Positions 3,837 to 61,728 of a DNA stretch of 64,000 nucleotides are shown one piece after another (position 1 is the stretch's first letter; every line of letters starts with the position of its first letter). A program made the position numbers and the translations under genes. This stretch comes from Gammaproteobacteria bacterium (GTDB lineage Bacteria; Pseudomonadota; Gammaproteobacteria; Xanthomonadales; SZUA-36), in the NCBI GenBank assembly GCA_021772915.1, contig JAJFLB010000014.1, forward strand, positions 1 to 64,000, in the 5' to 3' direction. Under the pieces are notes generated by a model. The model had not been told where the DNA came from. It ran no database searches and worked only from the letters and a program-made list of their open reading frames with translations.

Positions 3837-5710
3837 CCATGAAAAACCGTTCATTGATATTAATTGTGATAGGCGCGCTATTTTTTGCTTTTGCCACGGA
3901 TAGCATGGCAAAAGGGAAGAGTGATGATAGCAGCGACGACTGTAGTAGCGACAGTAGTAGCGACAGTAGTAGCGACGACTGTAGTAGCGACGACGGTAGC
4001 GACGATAGTAGCGACGATCAACCCCGATCCACTTCAGGAATGGTGATTTTTGACATGACCGCCAACCCTGGTGACGTGGCTATTACGACCAACCTGAGTT
4101 TTGTCGCCCCTGGCTCAAAGGCGGATTCTGCCATTGATGATGGCTTTGGTTTCAACACCATCAATATCGAGGATTTTCATGTTTTGAGCCGGGACAGGAC
4201 CAAAACGCCGGAGGCACTGAGGTTGAGAATTGGAGAGAGTTCAGAAACGGTGAGTGAGAATCAACTTGACCAAGCCGGTGAGTCGACATTTTTCGCCGAT
4301 GGAAATCACCTGTTCGATCTCGACCGCATAAGAGCTGCAGCGGATTGGATGGCCAAACCGGGCAACCTGGTACCAGATTCTGGTGTGCCTGCGGGCAGTT
4401 ACGGCACTATCAGCTTCGGGCAGCTTCTGAATAATGTCGACGTGGGCCGCACCATGTACGGAATTGTGAGGGTAAAGGTACCTCTGGAGCTTGGAACCTG
4501 TACGAGTAACGACAATTGTGGCAAGAATTCACTGGGTGCTGTCGTGGATAAGACGACCATTTACGGACTGTGTAAATCCAATGACGGCTTGTGTAGTTGC
4601 GCGCCTGCAAACGGCTACAAGATTCAGGAAGGTAAGAAAAAATGCGATGCCGATCCTGACAAATTGTCAGATCTGCTTGCCACACAAATTCGTGTAAAAG
4701 GGTCATTATTCTGGGATTTCGTGGCTTCTGAGGATAACGCAAGTGCCAATTTGCTTGAGGGCGATCCTGTCCCTTTCAGTTTGCTGCCCTGGGCACCGCG
4801 CGAGCTATACTTCAAGGTTGAGGTTCCCATTGGCGTGAACTGGGAATACGACCTGGATGGAGACGGAGCCATGGACAATATGTTCAATATTGCCAACGTG
4901 AGCGATGGAAGTTCGCAAGGTATTTTGAATTCACCATCAGTCACCTGGGCCATGGTAGCGCCAACCAATAAGGCTGAATTCGAATTCGCCAACAACAAAC
5001 CCCTTACTGAAGTCCTGTTCGATACTCTGGATGACGCGACCAAGTACCACCTGATGATGCCTAATGGTTACACCACGGGATGGGCAGAGGCCTTTGACAA
5101 ACTCAACATAACGGGCTCAATATGGCAAAGTATACCGGTGACGCCGGCCTTTGGGTTGCCAACAGGCTTTGAAAACCAGATTCTTACAGCAGACGTTGTA
5201 CGCAGCGAGAACTTCGAAGATATTCCAGCATATTTGTACAGCGGTGGCCTGATAGATATGCATGATCACGTCAATGTGTCCGGTCTCCTTTATGCCCCAC
5301 AGGGGATGGAGCTTGAGGCAAAAAACTCGACGCCGTCAGCACCGACTCGCCAGTATGTTGCTGGTGCCATAGTCGTTCGCGATACCTTTTTCATTGAAGC
5401 CAAGCAAAATACGGTCACCGTGATTTCTTCCCAACCCACGACCTATTCAACCGCCCTGCGTGAACCGACGCCCGAAACGGATGGTGGAGGTCCTCCGGTG
5501 GTATTTGTCCCTGCCGATGACGGCAGTTCCAATGACGATAGCTCCGATGACGACAGCTCAGATGATGACAGTTCCGATGATTGTAGTTCCGACGACTCGT
5601 GTTCCTCGCCCCCACCTGGTGGGCCCCCAACATCTTCTGGACCCGATCCAAAGAAGAGTCGCTGGATCGAGGTAAGACCACAGGTAGAAGACACGACCGG
5701 GGATGGGTGA
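3833..5710 (+). CDS. Unknown secreted Asp/Ser/Cys-rich protein in the PilY1 position of the pilin operon
   Basis: A 625-residue protein that I do not recognise as a family. An N-terminal signal peptide (hydrophobic residues 7-22, cleavage near MA-KG) indicates export. Residues 30-62 are almost pure Asp and Ser with two Cys. Residues 565-593 form a second tract of SSDDD units with several Cys, followed by a Pro/Gly stretch. Between them lie a small Cys-rich patch (about 221-271, resembling an EGF-like knot) and the calcium-loop-like segment DLDGDGAMDN (about residue 340). A segment near 475-510 (VSGLLYAPQG, then AGAIVVRD) resembles surface or pilus-associated proteins. It occupies the place of the tip adhesin PilY1 but shows no PilY1 beta-propeller features that I can see. 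Calcium binding and tip location are inferences. An alternative start is the ATG at 3839. Confidence 0.75.
   Translation: MTMKNRSLILIVIGALFFAFATDSMAKGKSDDSSDDCSSDSSSDSSSDDCSSDDGSDDSSDDQPRSTSGMVIFDMTANPGDVAITTNLSFVAPGSKADSAIDDGFGFNTINIEDFHVLSRDRTKTPEALRLRIGESSETVSENQLDQAGESTFFADGNHLFDLDRIRAAADWMAKPGNLVPDSGVPAGSYGTISFGQLLNNVDVGRTMYGIVRVKVPLELGTCTSNDNCGKNSLGAVVDKTTIYGLCKSNDGLCSCAPANGYKIQEGKKKCDADPDKLSDLLATQIRVKGSLFWDFVASEDNASANLLEGDPVPFSLLPWAPRELYFKVEVPIGVNWEYDLDGDGAMDNMFNIANVSDGSSQGILNSPSVTWAMVAPTNKAEFEFANNKPLTEVLFDTLDDATKYHLMMPNGYTTGWAEAFDKLNITGSIWQSIPVTPAFGLPTGFENQILTADVVRSENFEDIPAYLYSGGLIDMHDHVNVSGLLYAPQGMELEAKNSTPSAPTRQYVAGAIVVRDTFFIEAKQNTVTVISSQPTTYSTALREPTPETDGGGPPVVFVPADDGSSNDDSSDDDSSDDDSSDDCSSDDSCSSPPPGGPPTSSGPDPKKSRWIEVRPQVEDTTGDG
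3921..4018 (+). repeat. In-frame 12-bp tandem array encoding the N-terminal Asp/Ser tract
   Basis: Imperfect 12-bp units of the form AGTAGCGACRRY are repeated about eight times and encode SSD-S/D-type tetrapeptides with interspersed Cys. Because units are multiples of three, slippage would change tract length without breaking the frame. Confidence 0.75.
5525..5612 (+). repeat. In-frame 15-bp tandem array encoding the C-terminal Asp/Ser tract
   Basis: Imperfect 15-bp units around AGCTCCGATGACGAC encode SSDDD pentapeptides and later SSDDC. The period (15 bp) differs from that of the N-terminal array (12 bp), so the two tracts probably arose independently. Confidence 0.7.
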
Positions 5711-5783
5711 CAGGCTTTGACAAACTGCTATCCGCGCAACGGGGAGTAGCGTGGGGTAGTTTGTAAGCGTTGTGAGTGTCGTA

Positions 5784-6236
5784 TCAGCCGTGCTTGAGTA
5801 TACGCGCTTTTTGTCTCTTCCAGTCACGGGCTTTCTGGTCGGCACGCTTATCGTGTTGCCGTTTGCCCTTGGCGATACCAATTTCTACTTTTACCCGGCC
5901 TCTTGACCAATATAAGGCCATTGGTATGGCGGTATAGCCTTTACGCTCCACCATGACGGTAATCCTTTCAATTTCACGTCGGTGCAAAAGCAACTTGCGG
6001 GTCCGTACAGGATCGGCTGTGATATGCGTGGAGACAGTGGGTAACGGATCGATGCGGCAACCGAACAGAAATGCTTCGTGGTCTTTCAACAGGACATAAC
6101 TGTCGCCGAATTGCAGCCTGGACTCGCGTAGCGACTTGACTTCCCACCCCTGTAACTCCAGGCCTGCCTCGAACCGTTCTTCGACCTTGTACTCAAAACG
6201 CGCACGTTTGTTGCGAGCAATACTTTTAGTACCCAT
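5784..6236 (-). CDS. smpB: SsrA-binding protein SmpB
   Basis: A 150-residue small basic protein that binds tmRNA and mimics the codon-anticodon stem in the decoding centre of stalled ribosomes. It has the N-terminal [11 protein letters not shown], the OB-fold core [13 protein letters not shown] and [10 protein letters not shown], the [11 protein letters not shown] strand, and the basic tail [15 protein letters not shown] that becomes helical in the ribosome. Its partner ssrA lies 5.2 kb away at the window start. The pilin operon sits between them and converges on smpB. It is divergent from ratA, a conserved gammaproteobacterial arrangement. Confidence 0.97.
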
Positions 6237-56374: not shown

Positions 56375-57151
56375 ATGCCGCTGTTGCTTATCGCCGGTCT
56401 GTTCTTTCTGACTGCGGTTGCATACTCATCTGTTGGTTTTGGGGGTGGGTCCACCTACAACGCACTGCTGGTTCTGTCAGGTATGGACTACCGGTTGGTA
56501 CCGGCCATTGCACTGAGCTGCAATATTCTGGTTGTAGGTGGTGGTGTCTACCACTACATGCGCGCCGGGTACTTGTCGCTGTCAGGCTTGTTGCCTTACA
56601 TTGTGCTGTCGATTCCACTGGCCTGGCTGGGTGGACGTCTACAGGTTTCAGAGCAGCTATTTGTTGGTTTGCTGGGTTTCAGTCTGCTGCTGGTGACGGC
56701 GCAAATGTTGCGGAAACCGAGTGCGGGATTTAGCCCGGAAAGACACAGCAAGTCGGGATTGTGGTTAAGAGCCGCACCCGTCGGTGGGTTGATCGGCTTT
56801 CTGGCCGGGGTTACCGGTATTGGCGGGGGGATATTCCTGGCTCCGGTCATCTACCTGTTCCGCATGGCGCCGCCACGGGAGGTTGCGGGTATCACCAGTG
56901 GCTTTATCCTGGTTAACTCCCTGGCCGGTCTTGGTGGTCAGGTGTTCAAAGCCGGCGACTACTCTCCGCTGCAAGACACACTGGGGGCCTGGCCGTTATT
57001 CATTGCTGTCATTATCGGTGGCCAGCTCGGCAGCCGGCTGGGGGCTTATAAGCTGCCGGAAAAATGGGTCAGACAGCTTACCGGCTTGCTAATTCTCTAT
57101 GTGGCAGTCAGGTTATTATGGCGTTGGGTCGATATGGTATTGCCGGGATGA
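56375..57151 (+). CDS. TauE/SafE family (sulfite exporter-like) membrane protein
   Basis: A 258-residue permease with about eight hydrophobic segments. The N-terminal motif VAYSSVGFGGGSTYNALLV and the mid-protein repeat GFLAGVTGIGGGIFLAPVIYL are the paired TauE/SafE signatures. Substrates of the family are sulfite, sulfoacetate or similar organosulfur anions; none can be assigned here. It lies 4 bp before moaA on the same strand, so it may be cotranscribed with molybdenum cofactor genes. It may help handle sulfite or oxyanions, by inference. Confidence 0.9.
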   Translation: MPLLLIAGLFFLTAVAYSSVGFGGGSTYNALLVLSGMDYRLVPAIALSCNILVVGGGVYHYMRAGYLSLSGLLPYIVLSIPLAWLGGRLQVSEQLFVGLLGFSLLLVTAQMLRKPSAGFSPERHSKSGLWLRAAPVGGLIGFLAGVTGIGGGIFLAPVIYLFRMAPPREVAGITSGFILVNSLAGLGGQVFKAGDYSPLQDTLGAWPLFIAVIIGGQLGSRLGAYKLPEKWVRQLTGLLILYVAVRLLWRWVDMVLPG

Positions 57152-57155
57152 TAGA

Positions 57156-58166
57156 TTGAAGCCACTTGTTGACACTTTGGATAGACCGCTGAGAGATCTC
57201 AGGATTTCGGTGCTGGATCGTTGCAATTTACGCTGCGCCTACTGTATGCCGGAAGAATCTTTACACGCCAAGGGAGTTTTTCTGCCCCCTCAGAACCTGC
57301 TTAGTGATGGTGAAATTGAGTTTCTAGTGCGGGTATTTGTTGAGCTTGGAGTACACAAGGTGCGTTTAACGGGCGGGGAGCCTCTTTTGCGCCCGGGATT
57401 TACTGAGCTGGTCAGCCGGATTGCCTCAATTCCCGGCTTGAAGGATTTTGCGCTGACGACTAACGCGATTTTACTGCCGCGTCACGCCGACGCACTGAAA
57501 GAGGCCGGACTGGGCAGGATTACGATCAGTCTGGACAGTCTGGATGAGACGGTGTTCCGGAAAATGGCGGGCGGCCGCGGCACGGTGCGGGAAGTCCTGG
57601 ACGGAGTTGCTGCAGCGGAAGTTGCCGGTTTCAAATGTCTGAAAATCAACACGGTGGTACAACGTGGCGTCAATGACCGCACGATCATGGAGTTGGTAAG
57701 CCATTTCAGAAATACGCCGCATACTGTAAGGCTTATCGAGTTTATGGATGTAGGAAATGTCAATCACTGGAATCGGGGGCTGGTCGTTCCGGGTACAGAG
57801 TTGTTAAAGGCCATCCATGACCGCTGGCCTTTACGACCCGCGGCTGGTCAATACGCAAGCGAGACAGCAAGGCGTTACGCTTTCGAGGATGGGGCGGGTG
57901 AAATCGGTTTCATCAACTCGATCTCCGAGCCTTTCTGTGGGGATTGCTCACGCGCCAGGATTACCGCAGATGGTGCACTCTACAGTTGTCTGTTTTCTGC
58001 ACGCGGCACCGGATTACGCGATAAAATCCGTCTGGGAATGGGCGCCACGGAGATGGCGGAAGAGATTCGAGGTCTGTGGTCACGACGTGCGGATCGTTAC
58101 AGCGAGTTGCGCAGCCGTTTACCGCAGCACCAGCCACATGTGGAAATGTACAGGATGGGTGGTTAA
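57156..58166 (+). CDS. moaA: GTP 3',8-cyclase MoaA
   Basis: A 336-residue radical SAM enzyme for the first step of molybdopterin synthesis. The N-terminal cluster CNLRCAYC has C23, C27 and C30. LTGGEPLLRP follows, then the C-terminal cluster FCGDCSRARITADGALYSC and the terminal GG needed for activity. The start is probably TTG at 57156 (LKPLVDTLDRPLRDLRIS); no ATG fits without overlapping the exporter gene. The stop overlaps moaD as TAATG. Confidence 0.96.
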   Translation: MKPLVDTLDRPLRDLRISVLDRCNLRCAYCMPEESLHAKGVFLPPQNLLSDGEIEFLVRVFVELGVHKVRLTGGEPLLRPGFTELVSRIASIPGLKDFALTTNAILLPRHADALKEAGLGRITISLDSLDETVFRKMAGGRGTVREVLDGVAAAEVAGFKCLKINTVVQRGVNDRTIMELVSHFRNTPHTVRLIEFMDVGNVNHWNRGLVVPGTELLKAIHDRWPLRPAAGQYASETARRYAFEDGAGEIGFINSISEPFCGDCSRARITADGALYSCLFSARGTGLRDKIRLGMGATEMAEEIRGLWSRRADRYSELRSRLPQHQPHVEMYRMGG

Positions 58167-58405
58167 TGAAAGTGTGTGTGCGCTATTTCGCATTGTTCCG
58201 GGAACAGACCGGTTGTAGTTCCGAGTCCGTGGAGTGGCAGGGCGGTACGGCTGCTGAGCTGTTTCAAACGATGGCCGGGGAGCATTCAGACTTGCAAGCG
58301 GAGGCCGCTGCACTGGTGGCTATCAACGACGAAATGGCGGGCTGGACTACGGTTTTAAAAGAAGGTGATGAGGTCTTGTTTTTTCCACCGGTGGCGGGCG
58401 GATGA
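58166..58405 (+). CDS. moaD: Molybdopterin synthase sulfur carrier subunit MoaD
   Basis: A 79-residue ubiquitin-like protein ending in the essential FPPVAGG, whose C-terminal Gly is thiocarboxylated after activation by MoeB. N-terminal VCVRYFALFREQTG. It overlaps both moaA (TAATG) and moaE (ATGA). Confidence 0.95.
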   Translation: MKVCVRYFALFREQTGCSSESVEWQGGTAAELFQTMAGEHSDLQAEAAALVAINDEMAGWTTVLKEGDEVLFFPPVAGG

Positions 58406-58860
58406 GGTTTTCAGTCAGCACTACGGCAATTGATGTCGCTGCGGCGCGTAAGTCAGTGGCTGATACCAGCTGTGGTGCCCTGGTGGTCTTTGAGGGTTGG
58501 ATCCGTGACCACAACGAGGGCCGGCAGGTTGAACGGCTTGAGTATGAGGTCTATAAACCGCTGGCTGAAAAAGAAGGCGCACGAATTATCGAAGAAGCCG
58601 GTACCCGCTTTGCGGTCAGTAATGTCGTTTGCATACACCGCGAAGGCCTGTTGGAGTTAAGTGATGTCGCAGTCATCGTGTGTGTGACCTCGGCCCATCG
58701 TGCTGCGGCCTTTGACGCCTGTAGATACGTCATTGATGAGCTTAAATCACGTTTGCCAATCTGGAAGAAAGAGCACTACGTAAACGGTATCTCCGAATGG
58801 GTGAATTGCCAGAACTGTGCACGGGCGGGTCAATCAGCCGGAGCGCACAGGCATGACTGA
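58402..58860 (+). CDS. moaE: Molybdopterin synthase catalytic subunit MoaE
   Basis: A 152-residue catalytic subunit that transfers sulfur from MoaD to precursor Z. Conserved VVFEGWIRDHNEGRQVERLEYE, VVCIHREGLLELSDVAVIV, and the catalytic lysines in LKSRLPIWKKEHY. Its end overlaps the SufU-like gene by 8 nt. Confidence 0.95.
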   Translation: MRFSVSTTAIDVAAARKSVADTSCGALVVFEGWIRDHNEGRQVERLEYEVYKPLAEKEGARIIEEAGTRFAVSNVVCIHREGLLELSDVAVIVCVTSAHRAAAFDACRYVIDELKSRLPIWKKEHYVNGISEWVNCQNCARAGQSAGAHRHD

Positions 58861-59308
58861 TGACCGCAGGCAGCGGTTCAGTGAAATCATCATTGAGCAC
58901 AGCCAGTTTCCACGTTGTCATGGTTCACTGGAATCGCCCACACACGAGGGCACGGGTGAGAACCCATTTTGCGGCGATCGGATCAAGCTGCAGCTTACGC
59001 TTGACGCCGATGGTTCGATTACGGAAGTGGCCGTTGAGAGTGTCGGCTGTGCGATCTCAATGGCGTCGGGGTCACTGCTGGCCGCCAATCTGCAGGGTCT
59101 TAGTTTTAAGCAGGCTGACGTCCTGTTTGAGCAGATCCGAGCGGTGATCATGGCGGGCCCCACTGCCGAAACGGAAGAAAGCCTGGGAGAGCTTGCCGCG
59201 CTCGCGTTTGCCGGTCTATATCCTGCCCGGGTCAAGTGTGCAACCTTGCCCTGGCATGTTCTAAAGCACGTATTAACAGGGGATGAGTCAGTAGCGACCA
59301 CGGAGTAG
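58853..59308 (+). CDS. SufU/NifU-like iron-sulfur scaffold protein
   Basis: A 151-residue protein of the IscU/SufU group. The three cysteines and the aspartate of the SufU zinc/Fe-S site are present: C40 and D42 in NPFCGDRI, C66 in VGCAISMASGSLL, C129 in RVKCATLPW. N-terminal IIEHSQFPRCHG replaces the usual HxxPRN. A long insertion as in SufU (about 80-110) is kept. There is no SufS cysteine desulfurase next to it. It overlaps moaE, so it is probably made with the moa genes. It may supply clusters or sulfur for MoaA or MoaD; that is inference. The start at 58853 gives MTDDRRQRF. Confidence 0.85.
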   Translation: MTDDRRQRFSEIIIEHSQFPRCHGSLESPTHEGTGENPFCGDRIKLQLTLDADGSITEVAVESVGCAISMASGSLLAANLQGLSFKQADVLFEQIRAVIMAGPTAETEESLGELAALAFAGLYPARVKCATLPWHVLKHVLTGDESVATTE

Positions 59309-59482: not shown

Positions 59483-60229
59483 TTAACTACGCTTCCCACA
59501 GTCCTGGCAGTCAGGGTTTCGCTTTGGTTTCAGCGTTTGCCAGTCCCAGTTGGTAGCATCAAGCAGGTGCAAACCCACGGGTACCGATAAACCTGCCAGA
59601 CATGCGAGGGCAAAATGGGCGGCCGAGGTGCCGACGACACCTGCTACCGGGGCGAAAATACCCGCACCCGGGCAGTCCTCGAGCGTGTCCGGGGCCTGAC
59701 CATAGGTGCAGCGGTAGCAGGCGTTCTCTGGCTGATCAGGACGTAACAGCATCAATTGGCCTTCCATGCGAATACACGAAGCCATCAGCCATGGCTTTCC
59801 CAGTGAAAGACATACCCGGTTGACCGCCAGGCGGGTCCCATAGTTGTCACTGGCATCAAGCACAAAATCACAGGCAGGGAAAGACGACAGCATGCGGGTG
59901 TCATCCATCCGCTGAGTTTCCAATTCCAGGTTTGTTTCGGGATTAAGGATGTGTAGAGACTCTTTTGCCACCTCCACTTTCAAGCGTCCCAGGTCTTGCG
60001 AACGGTACAGGATTTGCCGCGCGAGGTTACTCTCAACCACTGTGTCGAAGTCACACATTGTTAACTTTCCGACACCGCTGGAAACGAGATACTGGGCGGC
60101 TGCACAGCCCAGCCCACCCATACCTATCAATATCACGTGACTATCCCGGATGCGCGCCTGACCGGCAGCGCCTACTCCTTTGATTGGCAGATGGGATGCG
60201 TAACGCATACGGGTACCGTCAGATTTCAT
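59483..60229 (-). CDS. moeB: MoeB/ThiF-type adenylyltransferase
   Basis: A 248-residue E1-like enzyme that adenylates the C-terminal glycine of MoaD. ATP-binding VILIGMGGLGCAAAQYL, FDTVVESNLARQILY, VLDASDNYGTRLAVN, and a zinc site made by CYRC and CQDC. There is no rhodanese domain. ThiF (for ThiS) is an alternative, but the placement between moaE and moaC on converging operons favours MoeB. It overlaps the 3' end of moaC by 11 nt. Confidence 0.9.
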   Translation of the reverse strand: MKSDGTRMRYASHLPIKGVGAAGQARIRDSHVILIGMGGLGCAAAQYLVSSGVGKLTMCDFDTVVESNLARQILYRSQDLGRLKVEVAKESLHILNPETNLELETQRMDDTRMLSSFPACDFVLDASDNYGTRLAVNRVCLSLGKPWLMASCIRMEGQLMLLRPDQPENACYRCTYGQAPDTLEDCPGAGIFAPVAGVVGTSAAHFALACLAGLSVPVGLHLLDATNWDWQTLKPKRNPDCQDCGKRS

Positions 60230-60737
60230 CCAGAATGGATTGGGCTACGGCCGATAAACCGTCCGGATGTGTCCAGTCACCACGTTTGCCTCCGGACTTG
60301 TGCAGCAGTCTTACATTCTTGATTTCCAACGCGGCGTTAATTGGTTTGGTCAAATCCCAAATGGTCAGAAGTGCAAGGTTCAGTCCGCACAGAGCTTCCA
60401 TTTCCACACCGGTTTGGGCGTTGATCTCGGCCACGGCGTAGACATCTACTGCGTATTCTTCCTCATCCAGACAGGTATGGATGGCTACACGGTTGAGTGA
60501 AATTGGATGGCAGAGGGGGATCAGTGCAGGTGTTTGCTTGGCCGCCTGGATACCGGCAAACTCCGCCAGTGCCAGCGCATCACCTTTTGGTAACGCTTTG
60601 TTTTTCAGCAATATAAATGCCTCCTTACCCACAGTGATACTGCCGCCGGCCAGGGCGCAACGGTAGCTGACCGGTTTGGTGGCCACATCGGCCATGGAAA
60701 ATCCGTGCTGGGTCTTTTTGGGTTTAGTGGAGGGCAT
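60219..60737 (-). CDS. moaC: Cyclic pyranopterin monophosphate synthase MoaC
   Basis: A 172-residue enzyme completing precursor Z. Motifs: FSMADVATKPVSYR, AEFAGIQAAKQTPALIPLCHP, TGVEMEALCGLNLALLTIWD, and the C-terminal LLHKSGGKRGDW. The start at ATG 60737 gives MPSTKPKKTQHGFSM; it overlaps the adenine deaminase end by 14 nt. Operon: deaminase-moaC-moeB. Confidence 0.95.
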   Translation of the reverse strand: MPSTKPKKTQHGFSMADVATKPVSYRCALAGGSITVGKEAFILLKNKALPKGDALALAEFAGIQAAKQTPALIPLCHPISLNRVAIHTCLDEEEYAVDVYAVAEINAQTGVEMEALCGLNLALLTIWDLTKPINAALEIKNVRLLHKSGGKRGDWTHPDGLSAVAQSILDEI

Positions 60738-61728
60738 TGATTTGTTCCAGGTAGGCGTTCTTGCTTGACTCTTCCATAAATGAAGATTCGAACCCATTGA
60801 TTACCAGTTGCAGGATTTCTTTCCGATTGAGGTCGAGGGCGTCGATTAAAGCATGGAAGTTCCCGCTTATATAAGCACCAAAGTAGGCCGGATCGTCAGA
60901 ATTGACACAGGCATTCAGGCCCAGGGCCAGCATCTTGCGAATCGGGTGCTCGGACATATCGTCTATCACGGCCAGCCGCAGGTTGGATTGCGGGCAGACT
61001 GTCAGGGGCATCTGCGTTGCGACCAGCCGCTTGACCAACTCCGGGTCCTCAAGTGCACGGTTACCGTGGTCGATGCGGTCTACCTCCAGCACGTCCAGTG
61101 CCTCGTAGATGTACCCAGGTGGTCCTTCCTCACCCGCATGGGCAACCCGCTTGAGTCCCAGTTTGGCGGCCTGTCTAAAGACTTCGCCAAACAGTGCAGG
61201 GGGGTGACCCAGCTCCGAAGAATCAAGACCCACGCCCTCGATTCTGTCCAGGTAAGGTTTAGCGGCATTCAGCGTTGCGATTGCGTTTTCTTCATCCAGG
61301 TGACGCAAGAAGCACATGATCAGCTTACTGCTGATACCCAGCTCGGCCCTGGCCTTGTCCAGGGCTGAGCAAATTCCGTGCATGAAGGTGGCAAAATCGA
61401 TCCCCCGTTCAGTGTGCCCCTGCGGATCAAAGAATATTTCGCAATGAACAACGTTCTGCTGTTTACAACGCAACAAGTATGCCCAGGTCAGGTCGTGGAA
61501 ATCCTGCTGCGTCAGTAGTACCGACATACCTTTATAATATAGATCAAGAAAGTCTTGTAAACAATTGAAATTGTAAGCATTAGAGACTGCATCAATATCT
61601 GCATAAGGGAGTGAGACATTATTGCGGGCCGCCAGATCCAACATCATGGACGGCTCCAGGCTGCCCTCGATGTGAATATGCAGTTCGGTCTTGGGAAGTT
61701 GCTGAACCAGTTGCTTGAGGTCACTCAT
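60724..61728 (-). CDS. Adenine deaminase type 2 (adenosine deaminase family)
   Basis: A 334-residue zinc hydrolase. Metal ligands HIH in TELHIHIEGSLEP, H in VAHAGEEGPP and DD in NSDDPAYFG. The signature GLDSSELGHPP, in place of the adenosine deaminase DLAGDE-type block, is the mark of the Aah1-like adenine deaminases, which convert adenine to hypoxanthine. Annotation as adenosine deaminase (add) would be common but less likely. The start is ATG 61728; a longer frame passes through a REP. A locally AT-rich, rare-codon patch lies at 61510-61620. Hypoxanthine could feed XdhAB. Confidence 0.88.
   Translation of the reverse strand: MSDLKQLVQQLPKTELHIHIEGSLEPSMMLDLAARNNVSLPYADIDAVSNAYNFNCLQDFLDLYYKGMSVLLTQQDFHDLTWAYLLRCKQQNVVHCEIFFDPQGHTERGIDFATFMHGICSALDKARAELGISSKLIMCFLRHLDEENAIATLNAAKPYLDRIEGVGLDSSELGHPPALFGEVFRQAAKLGLKRVAHAGEEGPPGYIYEALDVLEVDRIDHGNRALEDPELVKRLVATQMPLTVCPQSNLRLAVIDDMSEHPIRKMLALGLNACVNSDDPAYFGAYISGNFHALIDALDLNRKEILQLVINGFESSFMEESSKNAYLEQINALH

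Follow-up and report, generated by a model that had tools for sequence, protein, structure and literature searches.

A SufU-family gene in the molybdopterin synthesis locus of a gammaproteobacterial lineage, a candidate sulfur donor to MoaD

The closest described relatives of the gene considered here are the SufU proteins of Bacillus subtilis and Mycobacterium tuberculosis, zinc-dependent sulfurtransferases that work with the cysteine desulfurase SufS. In the SufS-SufU complexes treated in passages of PMC10216065, a histidine of SufS (His354 in M. tuberculosis) takes the zinc of SufU and frees the persulfide cysteine, and the Escherichia coli SufS, with a tyrosine at this position, gave no transfer to the M. 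tuberculosis SufU. The same His/Tyr contrast is discussed in part of a preprint (PMC12803347). The residues of M. tuberculosis SufU that contact SufS are Leu5, Tyr9, Cys40, Gly41, Asp42, Gly66, Cys67, Ser68, Arg128, and Cys131. Sulfur for molybdopterin is delivered in described systems by proteins of other kinds: the TusA of E. coli brings persulfide to MoaD-AMP on MoeB, and the rhodanese domain of MOCS3, coupled to the E1 enzyme that activates MoaD, is likewise a dedicated source of persulfide (both in excerpts of PMC5372717).

The window, i.e., the whole stretch of 64,000 nucleotides that was analyzed, contains a sufU gene that is away from sufS and accompanied by moaA, moaD, moaE, and moeB, unlike the sufU genes of SufS partners. 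The features of the locus are as follows.

56375 to 57151, plus strand: TauE/SafE family permease, upstream of moaA
57099 to 58166, plus strand: moaA, GTP 3',8-cyclase (radical SAM), TIGR02666 at 359 bits (cut-off, 284)
58166 to 58405, plus strand: moaD, molybdopterin synthase sulfur carrier of the ThiS family, C-terminal GG
58402 to 58860, plus strand: moaE, molybdopterin synthase catalytic subunit, MoaE at 127.5 bits
58853 to 59308, plus strand: sufU (moa type), ATG at 58853, stop codon ending at 59308, 151 codons
59362 to 59468, no strand: imperfect inverted repeat, 30-nt arms that are 87% complementary and 47 nt apart, between the stop codons of sufU and moeB
59483 to 60229, minus strand: moeB/thiF-type adenylyltransferase, with a ThiF domain only and without a rhodanese domain
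60219 to 60797, minus strand: moaC, overlapping moeB by 11 nt

The start of moaD shares one base with the stop of moaA, moaD and moaE overlap by 4 nt, and the 3' end of moaE overlaps the start of sufU by 8 nt. The true start of moaA may lie 3' of its first ATG, since residue 23 is the first to match the family model. MoaD reaches 58.1 bits with TIGR01682, slightly short of the cut-off (66.15). Directly downstream of sufU, and convergent with it, are moeB and moaC; moeB, being on the opposite strand, belongs to a separate transcript. The ATP-binding and zinc-cysteine regions of this MoeB align with those of E. coli MoeB, the protein passes the cut-off of neither the MoeB nor the ThiF model, and in the PDB E. 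coli ThiF scores slightly above E. coli MoeB. The permease is probably not part of the system because it adjoins moaA also in relatives without moa-sufU (L264 and, weakly, L263). No promoter or terminator signal exceeding chance was found near sufU. The inverted repeat consists of one pair of copies of an element that is dispersed over the window and has TAGGACCRACCNGCTTGCTGG as its core; six matches with up to three mismatches were found (12920, 16457, 33460, 47966, 59364, and 59446), against zero expected by chance. An Rfam scan of the window also detected a tmRNA (RF00023, 202 to 561) and a SAM riboswitch (RF00162, 13091 to 13208).

By sequence, the product of the gene is a SufU, with a predicted zinc site. 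The family-model search gave 115.9 bits with the NCBIfam SufU model TIGR01994 (curated cut-off, 92.5), and five further moa-type members scored 111.1 to 127.2 bits. The Pfam superfamily NifU_N, shared with the IscU and NifU scaffolds, matched at 67.4 bits; in contrast, the equivalog models of IscU (42.4 bits; cut-off, 192.4) and NifU remained far under their cut-offs. The nearest solved structures are those of SufU and SufU-like IscU proteins, and an AlphaFold2 model (mean pLDDT, 93.3) found SufU/IscU-type chains as top PDB matches, among them the SufU of B. subtilis (6jzv, TM of 0.84 by model length) and that of M. tuberculosis. The metal-site residues C40, D42, C66, and C129 are all kept. 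Among the moa-type proteins, the first three were found in 13 out of 13 and C129 in the 12 with letters there, and Arg126 is intact. Family model, fold, C/D/C/C site, and position of the persulfide cysteine are therefore those of the SufU proteins that serve SufS. The earlier note on this DNA had described a SufU-like scaffold with this metal site inside the moaA-moaD-moaE operon and overlapping moaE; family, site, overlap, and location are confirmed here, whereas the term scaffold seems doubtful, as the published tests of the M. tuberculosis SufU, in the passages of PMC10216065 that describe them, favor a zinc sulfurtransferase.

The moa linkage is conserved well outside the window. We scanned a genome collection and used the best 80 loci of a larger set of SufU relatives. 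Nine loci from eight genomes were 68 to 73% identical and all of them were moa loci; the other 71 among the matches listed were at most 45% identical and had a sufS neighbor in every case (71/71), which bears out the statement that SufU is normally found beside sufS. Within the host order (299 genomes), SufU of the window type was present in nine of the ten members of the genus, which by their contig coordinates are the window genome and the same eight genomes of the collection scan; in the tenth (G160, 82% complete) none of SufU, SufS, and MoaA was found. Four members of three more genera had SufU relatives with 47 to 56% identity in the same moa locus, and in these four the moa-type SufU was the only SufU found. 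Altogether, 13 genomes belonging to four genera share the arrangement moaA-moaD-moaE-sufU facing moeB-moaC, at SufU identities as low as 47%, and such a recurrence indicates that it is not due to chance. Directly after moaE is where sufU was found in all 12 loci with upstream sequence, and moeB was its convergent neighbor in 11 of the 12 with downstream sequence (the exception is L004). The start of sufU was 26 nt or less from the moaE stop in the seven further loci measured. A survey of the neighborhoods of close homologs, proposed in the earlier note, thus found the moa linkage kept. That note had also set against its own reading a suf operon without sufU elsewhere in the genome, coupled with a gene not conserved near moa; such an operon does exist (see below), yet the gene has stayed next to moa in each of the 13 genomes where it occurs. 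A quick-search SufU tree placed the 13 moa-type proteins in one clade (SH-aLRT, 99); left out of this tree were L009 (a second piece of the L007 genome) and, from the 40 loci L160 to L199, L174, L188, L189, L191, and L193. Short-flanked loci among L131 to L159 were used only if suf or moa genes lay inside or after longer stretches were read. The NG86 dN/dS of moa-sufU was 0.06 to 0.15 in the 6 of 15 pairs with estimable dS, with dS near saturation.

In the host family, all 16 examined relatives with moaA and no moa-sufU have neither sufU nor moeB at the moa locus, within a stretch that extends at most about 9 kb to either side and is shorter near contig ends, and in 12 of them moaE and moaC are directly convergent. 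At the moa locus of this family, and apart from L004, sufU and moeB thus appear to have entered the interval between moaE and moaC together. The MoaA tree puts the moa-sufU genomes in one clade (98/94). The SufS tree has two switches of moa-sufU, both coinciding with the SufS asparagine described below, and the one-clade tree was rejected (p 0.011). With two independent pairs, too few for significance, a test of joint change along the tree was discarded. The change in the locus represents one or two evolutionary events, mostly within one lineage.

The host genome is 4.68 Mb in size and 98% complete. Its sufR-sufB-sufC-sufD-sufS operon lies on a different contig and is without sufU, and sufE is at a separate place. 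The window sufU is the sole NifU_N gene over the cut-off; a second sufU or an IscU elsewhere was sought and rejected, the next NifU_N match having 12.6 bits, under the cut-off. A single NifU_N gene was found in all nine genomes of the genus (in G006 the gene, split across two contigs, was counted as one). SufE was also found in 9/9, so that SufS has another partner. TusA exceeded its family cut-off in seven of the nine, including the host genome, so that its absence had to be dismissed as a reason for the presence of SufU. Among the class V aminotransferases of the host we recognized two desulfurases: besides SufS there is a NifS/IscS-like enzyme of type I (L099, 4634 to 5779), encoded directly 5' of genes that, from their sequence, resemble those of a xanthine-dehydrogenase-type molybdoenzyme. 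This NifS/IscS-like desulfurase is a possible donor of a sulfido ligand or of sulfur for moa-SufU. Between an elongation-factor-like gene and sufS (L098, about 5667 to 5969), there is a short tandem repeat whose minus strand reads as a Pro-Thr-Gly repeat.

The SufS proteins of these genomes have also changed. Position 354 (M. tuberculosis numbering; we take the B. subtilis counterpart to be His342) was located by the spacing H-x-H-D-(12)-R-x-G-H-x-C, and an alignment with E. coli SufS agrees; L120, a weaker SufS paralog of one genome, was excluded from the counts. The host SufS has an asparagine there, as do all 12 sequences from 11 moa-sufU genomes. In G003 and G007, no SufS was found at the search threshold. 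Members of the host family without moa-sufU have the histidine in 17 genomes out of 17, with sufU located at suf in 3, next to an Exo_endo_phos gene (in most cases also close to uvrB) in 12, and not found in 2. Histidine is also present in the SufS linked to sufU in all 71 collection loci among the matches listed. Since SufS keeps it in the two relatives in which no SufU was found, absence of SufU alone is not the cause of its loss. Neither the neighborhood of sufS nor a SufS with the zinc-taking histidine was found for the host SufU and, judged by these two features, the SufS-SufU partnership that defines the known role of SufU appears to be absent from the host genome. Asn354 as an exclusive mark of moa-sufU genomes holds in the host family and fails in the order: in family f9, outside the host family, SufS has asparagine in 3/3, with sufU near suf and its third cysteine lost. 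This looks like a joint decay of the zinc-swap mechanism in f9.

Residues of SufU on the opposite side of this contact are altered as well, namely, at positions 5, 8, and 9 of the N-terminal helix that faces SufS. Compared with the contacts of the M. tuberculosis protein, the window SufU differs at Leu5 and Tyr9 and keeps the others save the position of Ser68, which is alanine, as it is in 71/71 suf-linked rows among the matches listed. Position 8 is leucine in 70 of these 71 rows and in the 31 other rows from the same order; in the moa rows it is arginine, threonine, or serine (13/13) and never leucine (0/13). Tyrosine occupies position 9 in all 102 other rows and in 6 of the 13 moa rows, the remaining 7 having phenylalanine or tryptophan. 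Arginine was found at position 5 in the eight rows of the genus, where M. tuberculosis and most others have leucine. The N-terminal motif, reported earlier as altered, does depart from that of suf-linked SufU at otherwise nearly fixed positions and, as SufS-contacting residues are among those changed, it falls in the part that docks on SufS.

Other unusual forms of SufU exist in the order. A second home outside suf was found in the host family (L160 to L168, L171, L173 to L177, and L179), adjoining an Exo_endo_phos gene. This neighbor was present in 16/16 of the non-suf, non-moa loci read, with uvrB within the stretch in 13. The SufS histidine was kept in the 12 genomes checked, and the metal ligands were intact in the rows checked. 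Location alone is accordingly insufficient to judge whether a SufU is a partner of SufS, given these sufU genes outside suf in genomes that retain the histidine. The third zinc cysteine is replaced by asparagine or serine in L196 to L198 (f9), L184 (f7), and L186, L190, L194, and L195 (f8), as well as in L169, L170, L172, and L178 (genus g9).

A chemical center that is kept, docking altered on both sides, the presence of SufE, and the E1-like and carrier neighbors make sulfuration of MoaD the simplest reading. To this reading, in which SufU has been redirected from SUF to MoeB/MoaD and acts as a zinc sulfurtransferase for molybdopterin synthesis, we give about an even chance. Cys40 would be loaded with a persulfide, either by a cysteine desulfurase or by another persulfide carrier of the cell, the SufU persulfide would attack MoaD-AMP on MoeB to yield the MoaD thiocarboxylate, and MoaD/MoaE would finally transfer this sulfur to cPMP, the cyclic precursor. 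SufU would stand in the place held by TusA in E. coli and by the rhodanese domain of MOCS3 in humans, differing from TusA in protein family and from MOCS3 in that the donor is a separate protein and the local MoeB has a ThiF domain only. The family, the metal site, the conserved locus, the pairing with moeB within the family, the loss of the SufS histidine, and the helix change can be read directly; zinc binding, persulfide chemistry, the MoeB/MoaD target, and the source of sulfur are what we infer. The co-location with moaD and moeB expected for a MoaD donor was found (sufU after moaE in 12/12, moeB in 11/12). Against this role is the presence, in most of these genomes, of TusA, the protein known to supply MoaD in bacteria. 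Weighing against it as well are the small number of evolutionary events behind the locus (one or two), the place of moeB outside the sufU transcript, the occurrence of Asn354 in f9, where sufU lies near suf, and the histidine retained by SufS in the two relatives in which no SufU was found. The literature searched, which lacks most subscription papers, yielded no account of a SufU acting in the synthesis of Moco.

One alternative, which is unlikely, is a sufU that has moved but continues to serve SufS and general Fe-S assembly, its place in moa setting only expression. The sole SufU of the host, a suf operon without any, and the intact metal site and Arg126 would fit it; besides, other genera of the family have sufU away from suf while SufS retains its histidine, so separation of the genes need not by itself break up the pair. 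However, in the 11 moa-sufU genomes with SufS sequences asparagine replaces the histidine that swaps the zinc, SufE is present throughout the genus, the positions of SufU that contact SufS are changed, and the moa linkage persists to 47% identity. Quite unlikely too is a scaffold or carrier dedicated to MoaA, the holder of two [4Fe-4S] clusters, which was one of two roles offered in the earlier note. The common operon would fit, as would the membership of SufU in the IscU superfamily, the PDB entry 9dcl, titled as a [2Fe-2S] SufU from M. tuberculosis, and the binding and transfer of a cluster reported for B. subtilis SufU (cited in part of PMC10216065), but cluster binding by the M. tuberculosis protein was judged nonspecific in passages of the same paper, and a suf operon is present. 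MoaA without an adjoining SufU in 16 of 16 family relatives argues that MoaA has no general need of it, and the pairing with moeB, which acts on MoaD, would be left unexplained. The other role offered, a sulfur relay to MoaD, is the one favored by that pairing and by the loss of the SufS histidine.

A different client of a MoeB/ThiF-type enzyme (ThiS, a tRNA, or a sulfido-cofactor step), with an incidental moa location, has a similarly small probability. The slight preference of MoeB for E. coli ThiF in the PDB, the two missed cut-offs, and the NifS-like desulfurase adjoining molybdoenzyme-like genes would speak for it, while the conserved cluster consists of moaA, moaD, moaE, moaC, and moeB, and no thi gene was seen in it. 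That sufU is a hitchhiker, kept by chance after insertion and with no Moco function, seems very improbable: most of the evidence does come from one or two events, but dN/dS is low where estimable, none of the metal ligands varies in the 13 genomes, and sufU starts no more than 26 nt from the moaE stop in the seven further loci measured.

Returning to the donation of sulfur to MoaD, we tentatively suggest, with somewhat less confidence than in the redirection itself, that SufU is the third type of protein to donate sulfur to MoaD, after TusA and rhodanese domains. Recruited together with MoeB, it would no longer depend on the SufS histidine, and its zinc site would be opened by a different protein, for which MoeB, MoaD, and a type I desulfurase are candidates. 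The known SufU proteins work for SufS alone, and a switch of pathway, with SufS changing in step, would, if true, show that sulfur carriers can be re-routed by altering a single metal-binding residue and the helix used for docking. Two questions become testable in this way: which protein opens the zinc site of SufU, and how MoaD is supplied with sulfur where MoeB has no rhodanese domain. For annotation, it advises caution, as the sole SufU of a genome is not necessarily part of the SUF machine.
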